64,000 bases of DNA from Longimicrobiales bacterium. Its GTDB lineage: Bacteria > Gemmatimonadota > Gemmatimonadetes > Longimicrobiales > Gaopeijiaceae. Of the stretch, positions 4,177 through 52,804 are shown piece by piece. The notes under the pieces were generated by a model, which was not told the DNA's origin, did no database searches, and saw only the letters and a list, made by a program, of their open reading frames with translations. Positions within the stretch are counted from its first letter, which is position 1. Every line of letters begins with the position of its first letter. The stretch lies in NCBI GenBank assembly GCA_951828585.1, contig OX639991.1, positions 62,001 to 126,000 of the forward strand, read 5' to 3'. The position numbers and the translations under genes were made by a program.

Positions 4177-5493
4177 TTAATTCAGGGTGTGCGAGGTGGC
4201 CGCGTCAATGCGAACACCGGTCCCGTCGCCTGACAGACGACCCCGGTGCAGGACCAGCGGATCCGGCGTACGCGCCGATTTCACCGCGACGCGCAGGTAA
4301 TCGCCGGTCAGTGCGGTTCCTCCCGTCCCCTCCATCACCACCTCCACTTCCGCTCCTCCCCGGCGGCGGGCGTAGCGCGCGCCCTTCTCCCCGGCCAGGG
4401 CTCTGAGTTCTCGCCCGCGCTCGCGCGACACGCGTTGGGGGACCGGACCGGAAAGACCGGCCGCCACCGTGCCGTCACGCGGCGAGTACGGGAAGACGTG
4501 AAGGTAGGTGAAGGGCAGTTCCTCGACAAGCGAGAGGGTGCGCGCGTGGTCGCCGGAAGTCTCGCCCGGGAAGCCCGTGATGATGTCGGCGCCCAGCCCG
4601 ATGGAGCCTACCGCGTCGGCGATCTCGAAGGCGCGGCGGCGGTACTGTTCGCGGGTGTGCCAGCGCCTCATGCGGCGCAGCACCGGATCGGCGCCGCTCT
4701 GAAGCGGCATGTGAAGGTGGGGAGCCAGCCGCCCCCCCGAGGTGGACAGGAGATCGATCATGGGGTCGTCGATCTCGGTGGCTTCGATGCTGCCCAGGCG
4801 GAAGCGCGGACCCGGGACCTCGTTCAGGAGGCGGCGGACCAGGGCGGTGAGCGAGCCGCGCGGGTCGAGATCGCGGCCGTAATGACCGATGTGCACGCCC
4901 GTGACGACCAGTTCGGGGTGACTGCGGGCCAGCGCGCGGGCTTCGGCCACCACGCGGTCCGGGTGTCGGCTGCGGCTCCGTCCCCGCGCCAGCCGGGTGG
5001 CGCAGAAGGCGCACTTGCGGTCGCAGCCGTCCTGGACCTTGAGCCAACCGCGGGTGGCGCCGGCGCGGCGCCTGAGCACCTCGGCGCCCACGCCCTCCAT
5101 GTGGGTGCGTTCGAGTGCGGCGCGGGATCCCAACTGCACGAGCCGGCCGGGTCCCAGCGCGCGGGAGGCGGCGGCCAGCACCTCGGCCGGGTCGTGCCCC
5201 TCGACGACCGCGGACACCCCGTCCATGGCCCGGTACTCGCGGGCGCGAAGCACGGCGGAGCATCCGGCCACCACAATCTCCGCGCCCGGGTTGCGGCGCC
5301 TGGCCCGGCGGATGTAGCGGCGGGCGTCGGCGTCGGCCCGGTTGGTGACGGTGCAGGTGTTGATCACGCACAGGTCGGCGTCATCGAGGGGCGCGGGGTG
5401 GCCGGTGGCGAGTCCCCCCTCGAGGCGTTGGCGCATGCGTTCCGTGTCGTACTGGTTCGCCTTGCAGCCGAAGGTCCTGTAGTGGACGCGCAC
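4177..5493 (-). CDS. mtaB: MtaB, threonylcarbamoyladenosine tRNA methylthiotransferase
   Basis: A radical-SAM enzyme converting t6A37 to ms2t6A37 in ANN-decoding tRNAs. MTTase cysteines are C10 (RTFGCKANQYD), C47 (NTCTVTNRADADARR, typical of MtaB and not MiaB) and C78. The SAM cluster motif is C157-x3-C161-x2-C164 in DGCDRKCAFC. The frame stays open upstream through two copies of a repeat element to 5826, which would give a 549-residue protein, but that N-terminus is translated repeat. GTG at 5493 (VRVHYRTFGCK) gives 438 residues, the usual size. No clear Shine-Dalgarno precedes this GTG, so the exact start remains uncertain. Confidence 0.93.
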   Translation of the reverse strand: MRVHYRTFGCKANQYDTERMRQRLEGGLATGHPAPLDDADLCVINTCTVTNRADADARRYIRRARRRNPGAEIVVAGCSAVLRAREYRAMDGVSAVVEGHDPAEVLAAASRALGPGRLVQLGSRAALERTHMEGVGAEVLRRRAGATRGWLKVQDGCDRKCAFCATRLARGRSRSRHPDRVVAEARALARSHPELVVTGVHIGHYGRDLDPRGSLTALVRRLLNEVPGPRFRLGSIEATEIDDPMIDLLSTSGGRLAPHLHMPLQSGADPVLRRMRRWHTREQYRRRAFEIADAVGSIGLGADIITGFPGETSGDHARTLSLVEELPFTYLHVFPYSPRDGTVAAGLSGPVPQRVSRERGRELRALAGEKGARYARRRGGAEVEVVMEGTGGTALTGDYLRVAVKSARTPDPLVLHRGRLSGDGTGVRIDAATSHTLN

Positions 5494-5523
5494 GGAACGG
5501 GGGTCGGAGGCGCCGCGGCCTAG

Positions 5524-5692
5524 CAGCCCGTGGACAAAGCCGCCCGAGCACCGAGAGCGGCGAGGCGCCGGGCTGGCAAGGCGCGACGAGAGGGGAATAG
5601 CAGGGCTATTCGCCCGAGGAGCAACGCAGAGCGAAGCGGTCCAGCCCGGATGCACCGCCGCTCGAATGCCGGGGGGGGTTGTCCGCGGGCTG
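5524..5692. mobile_element. Short inverted-repeat element, copy A (MITE-like)
   Basis: A 169-bp non-coding element. Its ends CAGCCCGTGGACAA (from 5524) and TTGTCCGCGGGCTG (to 5692) are inverted repeats with one mismatch. An internal hairpin GAATAGC-AGG-GCTATTC lies at 5595-5611. Copy B follows after 2 bp, and a third copy is at 32438-32606. The outer borders of the A+B pair are flanked by the direct repeat GCCTAG (5518-5523 and 5864-5869). No transposase is encoded, so mobilisation in trans would be needed. The minus-strand frame is open through the element, which artificially lengthens the mtaB frame. Confidence 0.8.
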
Positions 5693-5694
5693 CC

Positions 5695-5864
5695 CAGCCC
5701 GTGGACAAAGCCGCCCGAGCACCGAGAGCGGCGAGGCGCCGGGCTGGCAAGGCGCGACGAGAGGGGAATAGCAGGGCTATTCGCCCGAGGAGCAACGCAG
5801 AGCGAAGCGGTCCAGCGCGGATGCATCGCCGCTCGAATGCCGGGGGGATTCTATCCACGGACTG
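5695..5864. mobile_element. Short inverted-repeat element, copy B (MITE-like)
   Basis: A second, nearly identical copy at a 171-bp period from copy A, starting CAGCCCGTGGACAA and ending TATCCACGGACTG, so the right end has diverged a little more. The internal hairpin GAATAGC-AGG-GCTATTC is the same as in copy A. The right border abuts the stop codon of the outer-membrane protein gene (TAG, complement of 5866-5868), which falls in the flanking GCCTAG repeat. Head-to-tail arrangement of A and B could come from insertion next to an existing copy or from duplication of one copy. Confidence 0.8.
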
Positions 5865-5865
5865 C

Positions 5866-7071
5866 CTAGAACCGGGAGATGCCGACGGTGACGGTGGCCC
5901 GCCAGAAACGCTCATCCAGGGGGGCGCTCCAGCGGCTGCCCCTTTCGAAGGCCAGGTCCATCCATCCCAGGCGGTTGTCCTCGGTTTCGACCAGGTTGAG
6001 ACCCACTCCCAACGACCAGATCGACTCCACGGGATCCTCGGATTCGAACCGGAAGGGGGGCGTGAGGCGCCGGTAGCCGAAACGCACCGGCAGACTGCGG
6101 GATTGGCCGTCGATGACGTGCCATTCCACACCCGCGCCATAGCTCCACCTGCGGTCACTCGTCACGCCCGCCAGGAATCCATCCGATGCGGCCCAGTCCT
6201 GGTAGGCCCCGGAAACACTCAGGGCGAGACGTGGAGACAGACGGCCGGTCGCACCGGCCGAGATGCGCAACGGTACGGAGTAGTGCCCCTCGCCGGGGGC
6301 ATCGTCCCGCGGAAGCTCCCTGAGGGTACCGGACCACTCCGCCGCCCCCGCAAGATGGATCAGGGGGTGGGGATCGAGATTGAAACCGGCCGATACGAGA
6401 TACCCGCTGTAGTTCCAGGCATACTGTTCACGGAAGGAATACACCTCCCCGCCGACGGCAAGGGAATCGAGCTCGCGGTCGAACACACGTTCAAGCTGCC
6501 CGAGGTAGGAGCCCGCCGACACGCCGAGCGACAGACTCGAACCGATCCGCTGCGCCCATCCCAGACGGAGCACTGAGGTTCCACCGTCGTTCCGGTAATT
6601 GTCCTCGACCTCGACTTCGACCTCGTTCAGGATGACGGTGGAATGGCGTTTGGCCACCCAGCGCTGCTCCAGATGACCGGAGAGGGTCGCGGTGACGACG
6701 CCGCCCGCCGACCGCACCGGATACCCGATCCCCAGCAGCGGCAAGCGGGTGGTGCGGCTGGTTCCCGACTGGTCGTCCACGTCGAAACTGCCCCAGCTCG
6801 GCTGCATGGTGACGCCAAAGGTAGGCCAGAGGAGCCGGGCGGACGCAGCTGGGTCGGTGCCTGAAATCTCCACCCGGGCCAGACCGATCCCGAGGTTGCC
6901 CAGGGCGGTGGAGCGCGCATCCAGCGCATGGATGGGGACGCCGAGCGCGCGAAAACCCAGGAACGACTGCGCAGAGGCCGGGGCCGCGGCCGCCAGGACC
7001 GGGAGGAGGGCCGCCGCGAGCCGCGCCGCAACCGGGAATGCCGTGGTACCGCCGCCGTGTGCACTGCTCAT
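5866..7071 (-). CDS. Outer-membrane beta-barrel protein, PorV/FadL-like
   Basis: A 401-residue protein with an N-terminal signal peptide (LAAALLPVLAAAAPASAQS), an early RALGVPIHALDARSTALGN segment like the conserved N-terminus of PorV-type barrels, many alternating amphipathic strands, and a terminal Phe (GISRF), the usual outer-membrane barrel signature. The ligand is unknown. Its ATG overlaps the stop of the preceding lipoprotein gene as ATGA, suggesting the two envelope proteins are made together. The stop codon lies inside the flanking repeat of the inverted-repeat pair, so the insertion ended exactly at the gene's 3' end. Confidence 0.75.
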   Translation of the reverse strand: MSSAHGGGTTAFPVAARLAAALLPVLAAAAPASAQSFLGFRALGVPIHALDARSTALGNLGIGLARVEISGTDPAASARLLWPTFGVTMQPSWGSFDVDDQSGTSRTTRLPLLGIGYPVRSAGGVVTATLSGHLEQRWVAKRHSTVILNEVEVEVEDNYRNDGGTSVLRLGWAQRIGSSLSLGVSAGSYLGQLERVFDRELDSLAVGGEVYSFREQYAWNYSGYLVSAGFNLDPHPLIHLAGAAEWSGTLRELPRDDAPGEGHYSVPLRISAGATGRLSPRLALSVSGAYQDWAASDGFLAGVTSDRRWSYGAGVEWHVIDGQSRSLPVRFGYRRLTPPFRFESEDPVESIWSLGVGLNLVETEDNRLGWMDLAFERGSRWSAPLDERFWRATVTVGISRF

Positions 7072-10133: not shown

Positions 10134-10184
10134 GGGAGGGTTGCGGTGCGGGTGGGGGGGACGGTGATCTGGGTTGGGCCGGAG

Positions 10185-10285
10185 GCGTTGGCTCGGGTGG
10201 CGTCGGGGCGTTGGCTCGGGTGGTGTTGGGGCGTTGGCTCGGGTGGCGTTGGGGCGGGGACTCGGATGGCGTCGGGGCGTTGACC
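10185..10285. repeat. 23-bp tandem repeat between alr and mazG
   Basis: Four units with an exact 23-bp period begin at 10185, 10208, 10231 and 10254, followed by a partial fifth (GCGTTGACC at 10277). Units start GCGTTGGCTCGGGTGG and differ by a few substitutions, the fourth most. The period is not a multiple of three, no gene covers it, and there are no spacers, so this is a minisatellite and not a CRISPR array. It lies in the divergent region between alr and the mazG-like gene and so within their 5' regions. Confidence 0.85.
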
Positions 10286-31334: not shown

Positions 31335-32434
31335 CTGAGCTTGAGGGTGGCGAAGCCGACCATCGCGCAGAGGATTCCCAGGATCCAGAACCGTACCACG
31401 ACCTGCTCGTTCTTCCATCCAACCATCTGGAAGTGGTGGTGGATGGGGGCACATCTGAAGACGCGCCGGCCTTCGCCGTAGCGCCATTTCGTGTATTTGA
31501 AGTACCGCCGCTGGATGATCACCGAGGCCGCCTCGGCCGCGAAGACGCCGCCCACGGCCAGCAGCAGCAGCTCGGCCTTGAGCAGCACGGCCATGGCGCC
31601 CAGGGCGCCGCCGAGCGCGAGCGACCCCGTGTCGCCCATGATCACCTGGGCGGGCTGCGCGTTGTACCACAGAAACCCCAGCGCGGCGCCGGTGATCGCG
31701 GCGGCGAAGACTGCCAGCTCCCCGGCGCCGGGCAGGTAGAACAGTCCCAGATAGGCTGAGGTGTCCACCCGCCCGATCACGTAGGCGAAGACCCCGAAGG
31801 CGCCCGTGGCGATCGCCGCCAGTCCGGGCGCGAGGCCATCGAGGCCGTCGGTCATGTTGACCGAGTGGGTTGCCCCGTTGAGCACCACCGTGACCCACAG
31901 CAAGTAGGCCGGCGCGGTGAAGACCAGCTGCCACTCGTCGAAGACGGGCAGGTTGGTGGTCGTGGCACCGACCGCGGATGCGGGGGCCTTCAGCACCAGG
32001 AACAGTCCCAATGCCAGTCCCAGACCGAGCGACCCGGCCCACTTGTAGCGCTCGACCAGGCCCTTGGGGGTGCGGCGCACCACCTTCAGGTAGTCGTCGA
32101 GGAATCCCAGCGACCCCATCCAGAGCATGACCACCAGGGCGATCACGGTGTAGGAGTTCGCCAGCTCCGCCCACAGCAGCGTCGAGAGCGTGGCCACACC
32201 GACGATCAACAGCCCCCCCATGTTGGCCTTGGCTCCGTTCCTGTCGTGGTGCCCGTTCCTCCCGGGGACATCGACGATGTCTCGGCGCTTGAGCCAGGCG
32301 ATCACGCGGCGGCCGAGCAGCAGCGTCAGCACCAGCGAAGTCGCCATCGCCCCGGCAGACCGCACGGTGATGTAGTTGAAGAGGTTGAAGACGATGTGCA
32401 GGTCTTCGAGCCTGGGGAGCAGGTGGTAGAGCAT
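31331..32434 (-). CDS. mraY: Phospho-MurNAc-pentapeptide transferase MraY
   Basis: A polytopic transferase of 367 residues that makes lipid I from UDP-MurNAc-pentapeptide and undecaprenyl phosphate. It has NGHHDRNGAKANMGGLLIV with a shortened form of the usual K-x-GTPTMGG loop, the catalytic region NGATHSVNMTDGLDGLAPG, LGFLWYNAQPAQVIMGDTGSLALGG and the PIHHHFQMVGWKNEQVVVRFW motif. The ATG at 32434 (MLYHLLPRLEDLH) is inside the GCATCAG repeat flanking an inserted element. The frame continues upstream through that element and could mis-extend the protein by 89 residues. Confidence 0.96.
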   Translation of the reverse strand: MLYHLLPRLEDLHIVFNLFNYITVRSAGAMATSLVLTLLLGRRVIAWLKRRDIVDVPGRNGHHDRNGAKANMGGLLIVGVATLSTLLWAELANSYTVIALVVMLWMGSLGFLDDYLKVVRRTPKGLVERYKWAGSLGLGLALGLFLVLKAPASAVGATTTNLPVFDEWQLVFTAPAYLLWVTVVLNGATHSVNMTDGLDGLAPGLAAIATGAFGVFAYVIGRVDTSAYLGLFYLPGAGELAVFAAAITGAALGFLWYNAQPAQVIMGDTGSLALGGALGAMAVLLKAELLLLAVGGVFAAEAASVIIQRRYFKYTKWRYGEGRRVFRCAPIHHHFQMVGWKNEQVVVRFWILGILCAMVGFATLKLR

Positions 32435-32437
32435 CAG

Positions 32438-32606
32438 CAGTCCGTGGACGAGTCCGCCCGAGCACGGAGAGCGGTGAGGCGCCGGGCTGGCAAGGCGCGA
32501 CGAGAGGTGAATAGCACCGCTATTCGCCCGAGGAGCAACGCAGAGCGAAGCGGTCCAGCCCGGATGCACCGCCGCTCGAATGCCGGGGGGATCTTGTTCG
32601 CGAGCT
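32438..32606. mobile_element. Short inverted-repeat element, copy C, between murF and mraY
   Basis: A 169-bp copy of the element at 5524-5864, equal in length, with ends CAGTCCGTGGACGAG and CTTGTTCGCGAGCT as degenerate inverted repeats. The central hairpin is GAATAGC-ACC-GCTATTC: the stem is conserved while the loop differs from copies A and B. It is flanked by the 7-bp direct repeat GCATCAG (32431-32437 and 32607-32613). On the coding strand this is CTGATGC; the left copy supplies the mraY ATG and the right copy the murF TGA. Removing the element and one repeat restores a TGATG overlap. Confidence 0.85.
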
Positions 32607-32609
32607 GCA

Positions 32610-33983
32610 TCAGGTACTCCCTTCCCCAAAGGAGGACTCCAGCACCGGAATGAGCCGCTCGAGACGGACGCCGCGCGATGCCTTGAGGAGGACCGCGTCA
32701 CCGGGCTCGATCATGCGCGGGAGGAGACGGGCCAGCTCGTGCGGATCCTCGACCCGGTCGATGCGGTCGTCCGCGACGCCCTGGGCCGCCCGAGCGAAGG
32801 CGCCGGTCAGGATGATCCGGTCGAGGTCGGTGCACAGCACCTCCGCCAGCGTCTCGCGGTGGATGGCGGCGGACCGTTCCCCGAGCTCGAGCATGGTCCC
32901 CAGCACGGCCACCCGCCGACCCGGCGCCTCCATGGCCATCAGGGTGCAGGCAGCGGCCGCAACCCCGGCGGCGTTGGCGTTGTAGCAGTCCACCAGCAGG
33001 GTCAGGCCGCCCACGCCGCGGACCTCGCCGCGCATGGCGCGCGCCCGCACCGCCGAGACCCCCGCCGCCGCTTCCTTCTCGTCGACGTGCAACTCACGGG
33101 CGACGGCCAGCGCGAGCAGCGCGTTGTAGACGTTGTGCGCACCGGGGATCCCGAGCGACACCGGCTCGCCCTGCCAGGTGAAGGCGTAGGAGCCGTCATG
33201 GCGGCAGCTGACGTCGTGGGGCTGGAGGTCGGCGTCCGCAAGGTCGGTCCAGCCGCAAATCCTGGCGCCCGGGTGGATCGTGCGGGCTTCGTGCACCAGT
33301 TCGGCGGGATCGTCGCCGACCACCGCCGTGCCTCTGCCGCCGAGCGCGCGCACCAGATCCAGCTTCTCGGCGAGTACGCCGCGCAGATCCGCCAGCCGCT
33401 CGGTGTGAGTCTCCGAAACGGTGGTGACCACCGCCACCGTGGGGCGCGCGATCCGGGCCAGCTCCGCGATCTCCCCGGGCTCGTTGGTCCCCATCTCCAG
33501 CACCAGGGTTGTGGTGTGGTCCGGCATCGAGAGGATGGTCCTGGGAACGCCCACCCGGTTGTTGTAGTTGGCCATCGTGCCGTGGGCCTGATGGCTCGCC
33601 GACACGGTGCCCAGAGTCATGTCCTTGACCGTCGTCTTGCCCGACGAGCCGGTGATCCCGACCACGGGAATATCCGCCTGTTCGCGCCGATGCAGCGCCA
33701 GGTCGCCGAGCGCGGTGAGGGTGTCGGGGACGCGATAGACCGGGACCGCGCAGTCGCCCGGATCCCGATGCGACACCACCGCCCCACACCCCGCCGCGAC
33801 CGCCTGCGGCACAAAGGCGTGGCCGTCGAAGCGTTCCCCCTCGAGCGCGACGAAGACGTCGCCGGGACCCAGGGTGCGCGTATCGGTGGAGATGTCGCGA
33901 TAGAGGCGAGCGGGATCGCCGCCGGGCAGCCCCAGGGCGCGCCGCACCGACGCGTCGCTCCAGCGGAAGGTGGCCGCGCTCAT
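32610..33983 (-). CDS. murF: UDP-MurNAc-tripeptide--D-alanyl-D-alanine ligase
   Basis: Adds D-Ala-D-Ala to complete the UDP-MurNAc-pentapeptide; 457 residues. The N-terminal domain has STDTRTLGPGDVFVALEGERFDG, the P-loop is TGSSGKTT (111-118), then ANYNNRVGVPRTIL, LEMGTNEPGEIAEL and the C-terminal DCYNANAAGVAAA, all MurF hallmarks. Its ATG overlaps the murE stop (ATGA). The TGA stop lies in the repeat flanking an inserted inverted-repeat element, so coupling to mraY has been lost or altered. No ddl is encoded nearby, so D-Ala-D-Ala must come from elsewhere. Confidence 0.97.
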   Translation of the reverse strand: MSAATFRWSDASVRRALGLPGGDPARLYRDISTDTRTLGPGDVFVALEGERFDGHAFVPQAVAAGCGAVVSHRDPGDCAVPVYRVPDTLTALGDLALHRREQADIPVVGITGSSGKTTVKDMTLGTVSASHQAHGTMANYNNRVGVPRTILSMPDHTTTLVLEMGTNEPGEIAELARIARPTVAVVTTVSETHTERLADLRGVLAEKLDLVRALGGRGTAVVGDDPAELVHEARTIHPGARICGWTDLADADLQPHDVSCRHDGSYAFTWQGEPVSLGIPGAHNVYNALLALAVARELHVDEKEAAAGVSAVRARAMRGEVRGVGGLTLLVDCYNANAAGVAAAACTLMAMEAPGRRVAVLGTMLELGERSAAIHRETLAEVLCTDLDRIILTGAFARAAQGVADDRIDRVEDPHELARLLPRMIEPGDAVLLKASRGVRLERLIPVLESSFGEGST

Positions 33984-50378: not shown

Positions 50379-51548
50379 TCAACCCCCACGCACGATCCGC
50401 AGCTGGACCACGTAGGGCACGTCGAACTCGCCCAACGTCACGCCGGTCACGGTGCCCGCTCCGAATACCGGGCAGGGTTTCTTCTCGATCGGAACCGGCG
50501 AGGCCACGCGGCCCACATAGTACCCACGCTCGTCAAAGACTTCCCAGGCCCGGGTCGCCCCCCCTTCCGTCTCGATCCAGATCCAGCCGTCGGGACTGGT
50601 CCGGATCTGCTCGAGGGCGTGCTTCCATTCCGGCAGCCTGCGCGCGGCGATTCCGGTGGCGGCCGCGATGCTGTCACGCTCCCGCCCTTCCAATCTCGGC
50701 GCCTCGCGGTCCAGCCGCACGGTTCGCAGAGTGTCCCCACCGTACGTCGTCTCATGGATTGCGAAAACGGAGGTATTGGCCTGCCAGATGTTCCCGGCGG
50801 AGTCCACCGTCCAGCGGATGCGCGGCGCATACGGCATCCCGCGCTGCATGGAAATCCGGCTACTCCCCTCGGTGACCTGTTCCGTGGACACCGCGCGCGT
50901 CGGAATCTGCTCCGGCTCCGGAGAATTCGCCAGCGAGTCGAGTCCCGGTCCGGTTCCGTACCTGACGATCCTGTCGAAGCCCGGCAGCCAGAAGTGCAGG
51001 CTTCCTCCGGCATCGACCCACATCGGCCACGGATGGCTGGCCGCCCGACCCAGCCGCAAGGGATGTGTCGCCAGGACGGTTCCGAGGGAGTCGAAGACGG
51101 TGAAGCGTTCACGGATCGAATCGATCACCCACAGGAATCCGGGCGGCTGCCAGGCGATTCCCGCCAGCAAACTGAACTCTCCGGGTCCCTCGCCGGACCG
51201 TCCGATGGTTCTCACGCACTCGCCCCGAGGGGAGAACACCCGGATGTCGCTCCCCTGCGAGTCGGCCACGTAGATCCGGCCGTCGCCGTCCACTGCCAGG
51301 GACATCACCCTGCCGAACGCTTCGCAGGTGTCATCCACCGATCCGATTCGCAACACCTCGACGAGCGTCGGGGCTCCCTGCGGACCCGCCTGGGGAGAAT
51401 CCGGGTTGGATACGACGATCCTCCCGCTTTCGAGGGTGTCCACGCGCACGCGGTCGTTTCGTTCCTGGGCATCGGCCCGGAGGGTCGTCGTCGCGAGGAG
51501 TGTTCCGACGGCGATCGCGGAAATGGCGGTGCGGATGGTGATTCGCAT
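50379..51548 (-). CDS. Secreted six-bladed beta-propeller protein (paralogue 1)
   Basis: A 389-residue exported protein: signal peptide AIAVGTLLATTTLRADAQE, then NHL/6-bladed propeller blades with repeated patterns such as MSLAVDGDGRIYVADSQGSDIRVFSPRGECVRTIGRSGEGPGEF, IAWQPPGFLWVIDSIRERFTVFDSLG and SAGNIWQANTSVFAIHETTYGG. It is probably periplasmic or surface-exposed. The neighbouring gene 51641-52804 is a clear tandem duplicate sharing long identical stretches. AAGGGAG lies 7 nt before the ATG, and a -35/-10 pair lies just upstream. Ligand or function unknown. Confidence 0.8.
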   Translation of the reverse strand: MRITIRTAISAIAVGTLLATTTLRADAQERNDRVRVDTLESGRIVVSNPDSPQAGPQGAPTLVEVLRIGSVDDTCEAFGRVMSLAVDGDGRIYVADSQGSDIRVFSPRGECVRTIGRSGEGPGEFSLLAGIAWQPPGFLWVIDSIRERFTVFDSLGTVLATHPLRLGRAASHPWPMWVDAGGSLHFWLPGFDRIVRYGTGPGLDSLANSPEPEQIPTRAVSTEQVTEGSSRISMQRGMPYAPRIRWTVDSAGNIWQANTSVFAIHETTYGGDTLRTVRLDREAPRLEGRERDSIAAATGIAARRLPEWKHALEQIRTSPDGWIWIETEGGATRAWEVFDERGYYVGRVASPVPIEKKPCPVFGAGTVTGVTLGEFDVPYVVQLRIVRGG

Positions 51549-51578
51549 GCGGGGTCTCCCTTCGGTTCGTGGCCCGCG

Positions 51579-51619
51579 ATTGTAATGTGCAGTTGACAAA
51601 ATGTCTATCGCAGTTGACA
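51579..51619 (-). promoter_or_regulatory. Promoter and duplicated operator-like site of propeller paralogue 1
   Basis: On the minus strand TAGACA (complement of 51602-51607) and TACAAT (51579-51584) are separated by exactly 17 bp, giving a leader of about 24 nt. Two direct repeats of TGTCAACTGC (complement of 51589-51598 and 51610-51619) lie 21 bp apart, two helical turns, one in the spacer and one upstream of the -35. This looks like a repressor-controlled sigma-70-type promoter. The spacer region is shared with 58625-58647. Confidence 0.5.
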
Positions 51620-51640
51620 GATCGAGCTGACGGCTGGGGA

Positions 51641-52804
51641 CTATCCCCCCCGCACGATCCGCAGCTGAACCACGTAGGGCTCGTCCAGTTCCCCCAGGGT
51701 CACCGCGGTCACCGTCCCGGCTCCGAAGACCGGATAGTGCAACGGCACCGGTGGGACCACACGGCCCATGTAGTGTCCGCGCTCGTCGAAGACCTCCCAG
51801 GCCGGGGTCCCTCCCCTTTCCGTCCCGACCCAGACCCATCCGTCGGGGCTGGCGTGAATGCTCTCGATGGCGTACTTCCGCTCCGGAAGCCTGTGCGCGG
51901 CGACTTCAATGGCCGTCGCGATGCTGTCGCGCTCCCGGCCCTCCAGTCTCGGTGCCTCCCGGTCCAGCCGTATGGTGCGCAGAGTGTCTCCGGCGTACGT
52001 CGTCTCGTGGATGGCGAAGGCGGAGGTGTTGGCCTGCCAGATGTTCCCGGCCTGATTCACGGTCCACTGCACTCTCGGCGCATACGGCATCATGAAGTCC
52101 ATGGGCATCCGGATGTCCCCCACATCGATCTCCCGCTTGTAGCTCATCCGCGGATCCGGCGGGATTGCCGGTCGCGGAACGCTCGCCAGAGAGTGGAGTT
52201 CCGGGCCCGTGCCGTACGTTACGATGCTGTCGGGACCTGGCAACCAGACGTGCAGACCGCCTCCGGCATCGACCTGGAGCATCCAGGGTAGGCTGGCCGC
52301 CTGACCCAGCTCCAAGCGGTGCGTGGCAAGCGCGGTTCCGAGGGAGTCGAAGACCGTAGCGCGGCTTCGCAGCCCATCGATCGCCCACAGATACCCGGGT
52401 GGCTGCCACGCGATTCCCACCAGCCAGCCGAATTCGCCGGGTCCTTCGCCGGACCGCCCGAAGGACCTCAGACAATCACCCTCGGGCGTAAACACGCTAA
52501 TCTCGTTCGCCTGCCGGTCCGCGACGTAGATCCGGCCATCGCCGTCCACGGCGAGTGAAAACACCCTGCCAAACGCATCGCAGGTGCCCTCGATCGACCC
52601 GATTCGCAGAACCTCGACGAGCGCTGGCACCCCCTGCGGCCCCGCCTGGGGAGAATCCGGGTTGGATACGACGATCCTTCCGCTTTCCAGGGTGTCCACA
52701 GTCACGCGGTCGCTTCGTTCCTGGGCATCGGCCCCGAGGGTCGTCGTCGCGAGGAGCGTCCCGACGGCGATCGCGGAGATGGTGGCGCGGATGGTGATTC
52801 GCAT
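51641..52804 (-). CDS. Secreted six-bladed beta-propeller protein (paralogue 2)
   Basis: A 387-residue tandem paralogue of the 50379-51548 gene, with near-identical signal peptide (TISAIAVGTLLATTTLGADA), N-terminal VDTLESGRIVVSNPDSPQAG and C-terminal PYVVQLRIVRGG, and divergence concentrated in the middle blades (LPWMLQVDAGGGLHVWLPG, then RMSYKREIDVGDIRMPMD). Signal and ends may be held by selection or recent gene conversion. An in-frame extension to 52990 is not supported; ATG 52804 follows AGGGAGA. Substrate or partner unknown. Confidence 0.8.
   Translation of the reverse strand: MRITIRATISAIAVGTLLATTTLGADAQERSDRVTVDTLESGRIVVSNPDSPQAGPQGVPALVEVLRIGSIEGTCDAFGRVFSLAVDGDGRIYVADRQANEISVFTPEGDCLRSFGRSGEGPGEFGWLVGIAWQPPGYLWAIDGLRSRATVFDSLGTALATHRLELGQAASLPWMLQVDAGGGLHVWLPGPDSIVTYGTGPELHSLASVPRPAIPPDPRMSYKREIDVGDIRMPMDFMMPYAPRVQWTVNQAGNIWQANTSAFAIHETTYAGDTLRTIRLDREAPRLEGRERDSIATAIEVAAHRLPERKYAIESIHASPDGWVWVGTERGGTPAWEVFDERGHYMGRVVPPVPLHYPVFGAGTVTAVTLGELDEPYVVQLRIVRGG

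Follow-up and report, generated by a model that had tools for sequence, protein, structure and literature searches.

Structured bacterial MITEs such as Correia/NEMIS, RUP and ERIC are short, non-coding elements with inverted ends that occur in high copy number between genes and fold into a long hairpin. IS1272, of the IS1182 family, reportedly inserts by replacing stem-loops of the target and leaves no duplication (PMC5678879). The pair of repeats at 5524-5864 of the window, the 64,000-nucleotide stretch analysed here (positions 62001-126000 of the home genome, G000, a single contig of 4,472,315 bases), belongs to a MITE family whose copies in this 4.47-Mb genome number on the order of 100, and thereby to a known kind of element. 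Very probably, the family is non-autonomous and mobilised in trans by an IS1182-like DDE transposase, with a duplication of about 4 bp at CTAG, and its copies become landing sites for integrases.

The pair is located about 30 bp from the start of an mtaB-like gene, and its right flank coincides with the end of the neighbouring gene (Table 1). Among the relatives in which both the gene and this neighbour are present, 0 of 18 carry the element; the gap between the two genes measures a few to about 50 bp in relatives, while in the home genome the MITE pair occupies it, and several relatives without the element also have CTAG at the end of the neighbouring gene. The earlier note, made from the sequence of the window, had described a small mobile element present as a tandem pair, with inverted ends and a target duplication, and this description is supported by the genomic copies, their ends and the full transposon found in congeners. 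Some of its details require adjustment. The two copies start 171 bp apart, as described, and are identical at 151 of the first 153 bases; copy A has the 169 bp assigned to both, and copy B has 170 bp. The ends of copy A are inverted with the single mismatch noted there, and those of copy B (CAGCCCGTGGACAA on the left and, read inward, CAGTCCGTGGATAG on the right) contain more mismatches, not fewer. The hairpin GAATAGC/GCTATTC is conserved in all three copies of the window with a variable loop, AGG in copies A and B and ACC in the third. The hexamer GCCTAG reported on both outer sides is present there if the last G of CTG is counted; the real duplicate is CTAG, and on the right it does contain the native stop of the upstream gene. 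The CC between the units recurs in several further arrays of the home genome. A search of the interval 5300-6100 around the pair detected neither a sigma-70-like promoter nor an intrinsic terminator.

Table 1. Coordinates of the elements, their flanks and adjoining genes in the window.
Feature	Positions	Strand	Remarks
mtaB-like methylthiotransferase gene	4177..5493	-	TIGR01579, E 2.1e-101, 340 bits; slightly below the 357-bit cut-off
Left target duplication CCTAG	5519..5523	.	core CTAG 5520-5523; from sequence and single CTAG/TAG in relatives
MITE copy A, short form, 169 bp	5524..5692	+	inverted ends CAGCCCGTGGACAA / TTGTCCGCGGGCTG
Core GCCGGGCTGGCA, copy A	5567..5578	+	integrative elements insert here in other copies
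Apical hairpin GAATAGC-AGG-GCTATTC, copy A	5595..5611	+	helix 5 of covarying fold
CC junction, copy A to copy B	5693..5694	.	from sequence
MITE copy B, short form, 170 bp	5695..5864	+	from sequence and BLAST
Core GCCGGGCTGGCA, copy B	5738..5749	+	from sequence
Apical hairpin, copy B	5766..5782	+	from sequence
Right target duplication CCTAG	5865..5869	.	neighbouring gene natively ends in CTAG 5866-5869 (stop TAG, minus strand)
Neighbouring gene, weak BamG-like match	5866..7071	-	stop codon inside right CTAG
Left duplication CATCAG	32432..32437	.	holds ATG of mraY (minus strand)
Third copy, single, short form	32438..32607	+	from sequence
Right duplication CATCAG	32608..32613	.	holds TGA stop of murF (minus strand)

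The third copy splits the overlapping stop-start of murF and mraY (TGATG) within a cell-wall gene cluster. The element is absent from this site in 20 of 21 relatives, and nearly all of these 20 show the plain overlap of murF stop and mraY start (CTGATG); the congener G007 carries a tandem pair there, through either common descent or a separate insertion. In the home genome, murF keeps its TGA stop and mraY its ATG because the insertion duplicated CATCAG, and nothing was deleted. Both insertion sites of the window are therefore gene junctions with a stop inside the duplicated target, TAG at mtaB and TGA at murF/mraY, as the same note had observed. Other repeats in the window include a 23-bp tandem repeat of about 5 units (10169-10283) and a direct duplication at 50383-52467 with ~1.25 kb periodicity and 76-83% identity, the latter probably representing repeated protein domains or paralogous genes.

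The genome-wide search proposed in the earlier note detected copies by both BLAST and end patterns. The unit has 77 BLAST matches in the home genome, and the end patterns yield 81 left and 87 right matches against 0 for the reversed patterns; a further count gives 211 end matches, where the reversed pattern gives 11. The repeat is far beyond chance. Its terminal inverted repeats, of consensus CAGYCCGTGGAYRAA, are ~15 bp long, and the units (169-170 and ~245 bp) have no coding capacity. Paired ends in the home genome fall into two discrete lengths, with 30 copies of ~170 bp and 31 of ~245 bp, and many other copies have internal deletions that retain both ends and reduce their size to as little as ~50 bp. 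The long form has ~76 additional AT-rich bases that include a stretch, TTGACA-17-TACATC, which we read as promoter-like; judged by its sequence, this segment could drive adjacent genes or bind a regulator. The same 76 bp (A2 columns ~115-190) contain the AT-rich dyads ATGTATACTATACAT, ACATAATGT and ATGTAA..TTACAT. About eight head-to-tail arrays occur (2, 2, 3, 3, 5 copies and so on), joined by CC in most cases, by CCCG in two and by ACAG in one.

Three long-form copies (L057, L061 and L062, at 3906200, 4005600 and 3354700 of the home genome) have a common 40-bp left flank, GGCACATTGCGATGCCGTCGGGAGGGGGCGTCCACTCCA, and are therefore members of a larger repeat. A 3.6-kb stretch with perfect 24-bp ends including CTAG (L244:592-4243, within 3018000-3022800) was considered as an autonomous form; this reading was dropped, as the stretch is a long-form MITE interrupted by another IS-derived segment with CCTGCCTTATTCA ends. 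That segment carries small genes that belong to no known family.

The family was found in 23 of 23 genomes of the genus (Gemmatimonadota) and only sporadically outside it. The database neighbours in which the repeat also occurs are MAGs of Gemmatimonadota/Gemmatimonadetes whose isolate names include RHO, SB06xx, APA and COS; we take these to be sponge metagenomes, possibly 'Ca. Palauibacter'-like. Viral contigs yielded 98 unspecific matches to a 15-mer of the core and 0 to longer patterns; BLAST against plasmids returned no match to the unit, and a literature search by sequence string returned nothing relevant. Rfam gave a single irrelevant match (E 0.59) in 14 kb including the unit, and no curated family fits.

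Among isolated copies in the genus, the consensus is CTAG on both flanks, and insertion duplicates 4 bp. Flanks show direct 4-bp identity in 26 of 116 isolated copies (22%), compared with 8.9 +/- 2.6 expected when the right flanks were re-dealt in 1000 shuffles, of which the largest value was 18. With CTAG excluded, 16 identities remain against 3.65 expected. This excess over the shuffles means that insertion does duplicate 4 bp, even though most copies have lost the repeat or lack it. The two sites of the window have repeats of 5 bp (mtaB) and 6 bp (murF/mraY), not exactly 4. Copies without inverted ends or flanking duplications had been named as evidence against mobility; both features are present, with the identical 4-bp repeat restricted to about a quarter of the isolated copies.

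The same flank-match test rejected inverted instead of direct flanks, since inverted non-CTAG matches number 0 against 2.1 expected. This result also bears on a stem-loop-replacing mode as in IS1272, by which target hairpins at gene ends would be replaced and nothing duplicated. The related transposase family, the gene-end locations and the fact that most flanks are not identical agree with such a mode, but the flanks match as direct repeats, and at murF/mraY stop and start codons survive through a duplication. Replacement is very unlikely as the explanation of the family; it is contradicted at two sites and could apply to some copies with unequal flanks.

The gene-end location follows the target itself. 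The window has 9 CTAG sites where 62 would be expected, a seven-fold depletion, and two of these nine flank the mtaB pair. In 52 of 91 cases (57%), an isolated copy touches the stop codon of an open frame that is 130 codons or longer, compared with 3.6% of random positions, and CTAG sites free of the element touch such a stop in 56% of 108 cases. As copies and element-free sites are equally often at stops, target preference is enough to produce the gene-end location. The earlier note had offered either site preference or selection for harmless sites; the preference for CTAG suffices, and selection is unnecessary to account for the numbers, as element-free CTAG shows the same gene-end bias. This provides a quantitative, testable reason for the stop-codon location, namely that CTAG is depleted inside genes and lies mostly at gene ends. 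Several IS families of the home genome also use a CTAG target; an IS1634-family element, for instance, is found at CTAG adjoining a MITE array (L053:1190-3170, within 201500-209000), with GCTAGC on both sides.

The full transposon that the first reading had suggested looking for exists in congeners. Contig ends in G009 begin with CTAG|CAGCCCGTGGATAAAG and continue into coding sequence, and a 134-bp query taken from them led to complete copies of a ~1.5-kb IS in G001 (three copies), G016, G019, G007 and G015, most of them flanked by CTAG at either end. The IS has the ends CAGYCCGTGGATAAA / TTCTTCCACGGCCTG and encodes a transposase of 448-468 aa with DUF772 (PF05598) and DDE_Tnp_1 (PF01609) domains. 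The best of all NCBIfam models is IS1182 (NF033551, E 4.8e-55), and because its 187 bits are below the model's cut-off of 270 bits, the element is called only IS1182-like. IS and MITE appear to resemble each other only at their ends, over ~23 bp, and the right end of the IS, GTGGAAGAAG, is unlike that of the MITE, GTGGACAAAAT. Of such a transposase, the home genome retains just a fragment at 1,373,971 (58% identity, 78 aa) and no intact copy with these ends. Its own DDE transposases (41 PF01609 matches) were considered as mobilisers; the copies examined have other ends, none of them CAGYCCGTGG.

Palindromic units with a tetranucleotide at each end, tandem pairs and a conserved stem also recall REP/REPIN-type palindromes, which are moved by a RAYT (Y1 HUH transposase) into a tetranucleotide target without duplication. 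Such an origin is extremely unlikely here: the complete home genome has no Y1 transposase (PF01797) in a search that was positive in 5 control genomes, the direct 4-bp duplications at the flanks are significant, and congeners contain an IS of DDE type that shares the ends of the MITE.

The unit as a whole folds into a single long hairpin, with -110.5 kcal/mol and z -8.6 as RNA and z -7.0 as DNA. Standard pairs make up 97.1% of the pair cells across 38 diverged copies. Of the 58 pairs, 21 vary on both sides, compared with 8.2 +/- 1.6 in shuffles that keep the relatedness among copies, so that the strength is not readable as a probability, and with at most 7 when slid. This covariation exceeds what a MITE needs at its ends, and a cruciform or RNA structure may matter for transposition or for the host. 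The fold and its covariation, together with the absence of an intact partner transposase from the home genome, would suit a repeat that is not mobile now, a structured RNA or terminator that spread in the past and is maintained by selection. We regard this as rather unlikely, given that the window insertions are missing from nearly all congeners and that a search around the pair yielded neither terminator-like nor promoter-like sites; present immobility would, in any case, leave the MITE nature of the family unchanged.

According to the MITE explanation, which we prefer, the IS1182-like IS shares its ends and its CTAG target with the gene-free MITE, which its DDE transposase would move in trans, and insertion into a CTAG-like site would duplicate about 4 bp. 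Copies would lodge between genes and leave both neighbours intact because CTAG is rare in the genus and occurs mostly at stop codons. For the arrays, we infer that insertion was repeated beside an existing end, or that a dimer with joined ends formed, and that unequal recombination came afterwards. Tyrosine integrases would then recombine at the GCCGGGCTGGCA core within MITE copies. Several observations count against this explanation: the CC between units is no ordinary target duplication, an identical 4-bp flank survives in just 22% of isolated copies, the repeats at the two sites of the window are 5 and 6 bp long, the transposase of the home genome is just a fragment, the right ends of MITE and IS differ, and the IS1182 score is below its cut-off.

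The last step concerns a 12-bp core, GCCGGGCTGGCA, at unit positions 43-54. In two places of the home genome, a unit is split by 5.1 kb (L084, 2846900-2853100) or 8.1 kb (L085, 2139400-2148300) with the core at both boundaries, and a third element (L262, 1367700-1377700) begins inside a unit and has the core at its far boundary. Each of the three has a tyrosine integrase (PF00589) adjoining one boundary, the integrases being 82-88% mutually identical, and L085 additionally carries genes for MobC and a MobA/VirD2-type relaxase. At L315 and L406, related integrases adjoin half-units; L394 and L399 contain half-units broken at the same point. These insertions suggest that the integrase family uses the core as its attachment site, where it would recombine. 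A limited literature search found no paper on a MITE as an integrase site. We tentatively consider it possible that the MITE is a dispersed, structure-conserved landing pad, whose hairpin is under selection as RNA or cruciform and to whose core the integrase of mobilisable elements evolved; if true, one mobile element provides, throughout the genus, the network of sites into which another inserts.

The MITE explanation thus links a MITE family, its partner IS, a rare-tetranucleotide target and hitch-hiking integrases in an uncultured sponge-type lineage. Compared from general knowledge, it resembles Correia/NEMIS, RUP and ERIC in being short, non-coding, intergenic and abundant, with inverted ends and a long hairpin; it differs in its ends, target and host phylum, in covariation along its whole length and in its internal integrase core. 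With RAYT-mobilised REPINs it has in common palindromic, intergenic and tandem copies, whereas the home genome has no Y1 transposase, the target is duplicated and the partner in congeners is a DDE enzyme. The IS1182 family, including IS1272, is similar in its DUF772 + DDE_Tnp_1 transposase, its small palindromic target and its insertions beside gene ends; the partner IS differs in scoring below the model cut-off and in duplicating ~4 bp (CTAG), where IS1272 reportedly duplicates none (PMC5678879). Finally, the inserted elements are like integrative mobilisable elements in having an integrase beside one att half, a short core repeated at both boundaries and, in L085, a relaxase with MobC, but they attach at a MITE present in many copies, not at a single gene for a tRNA or another product.
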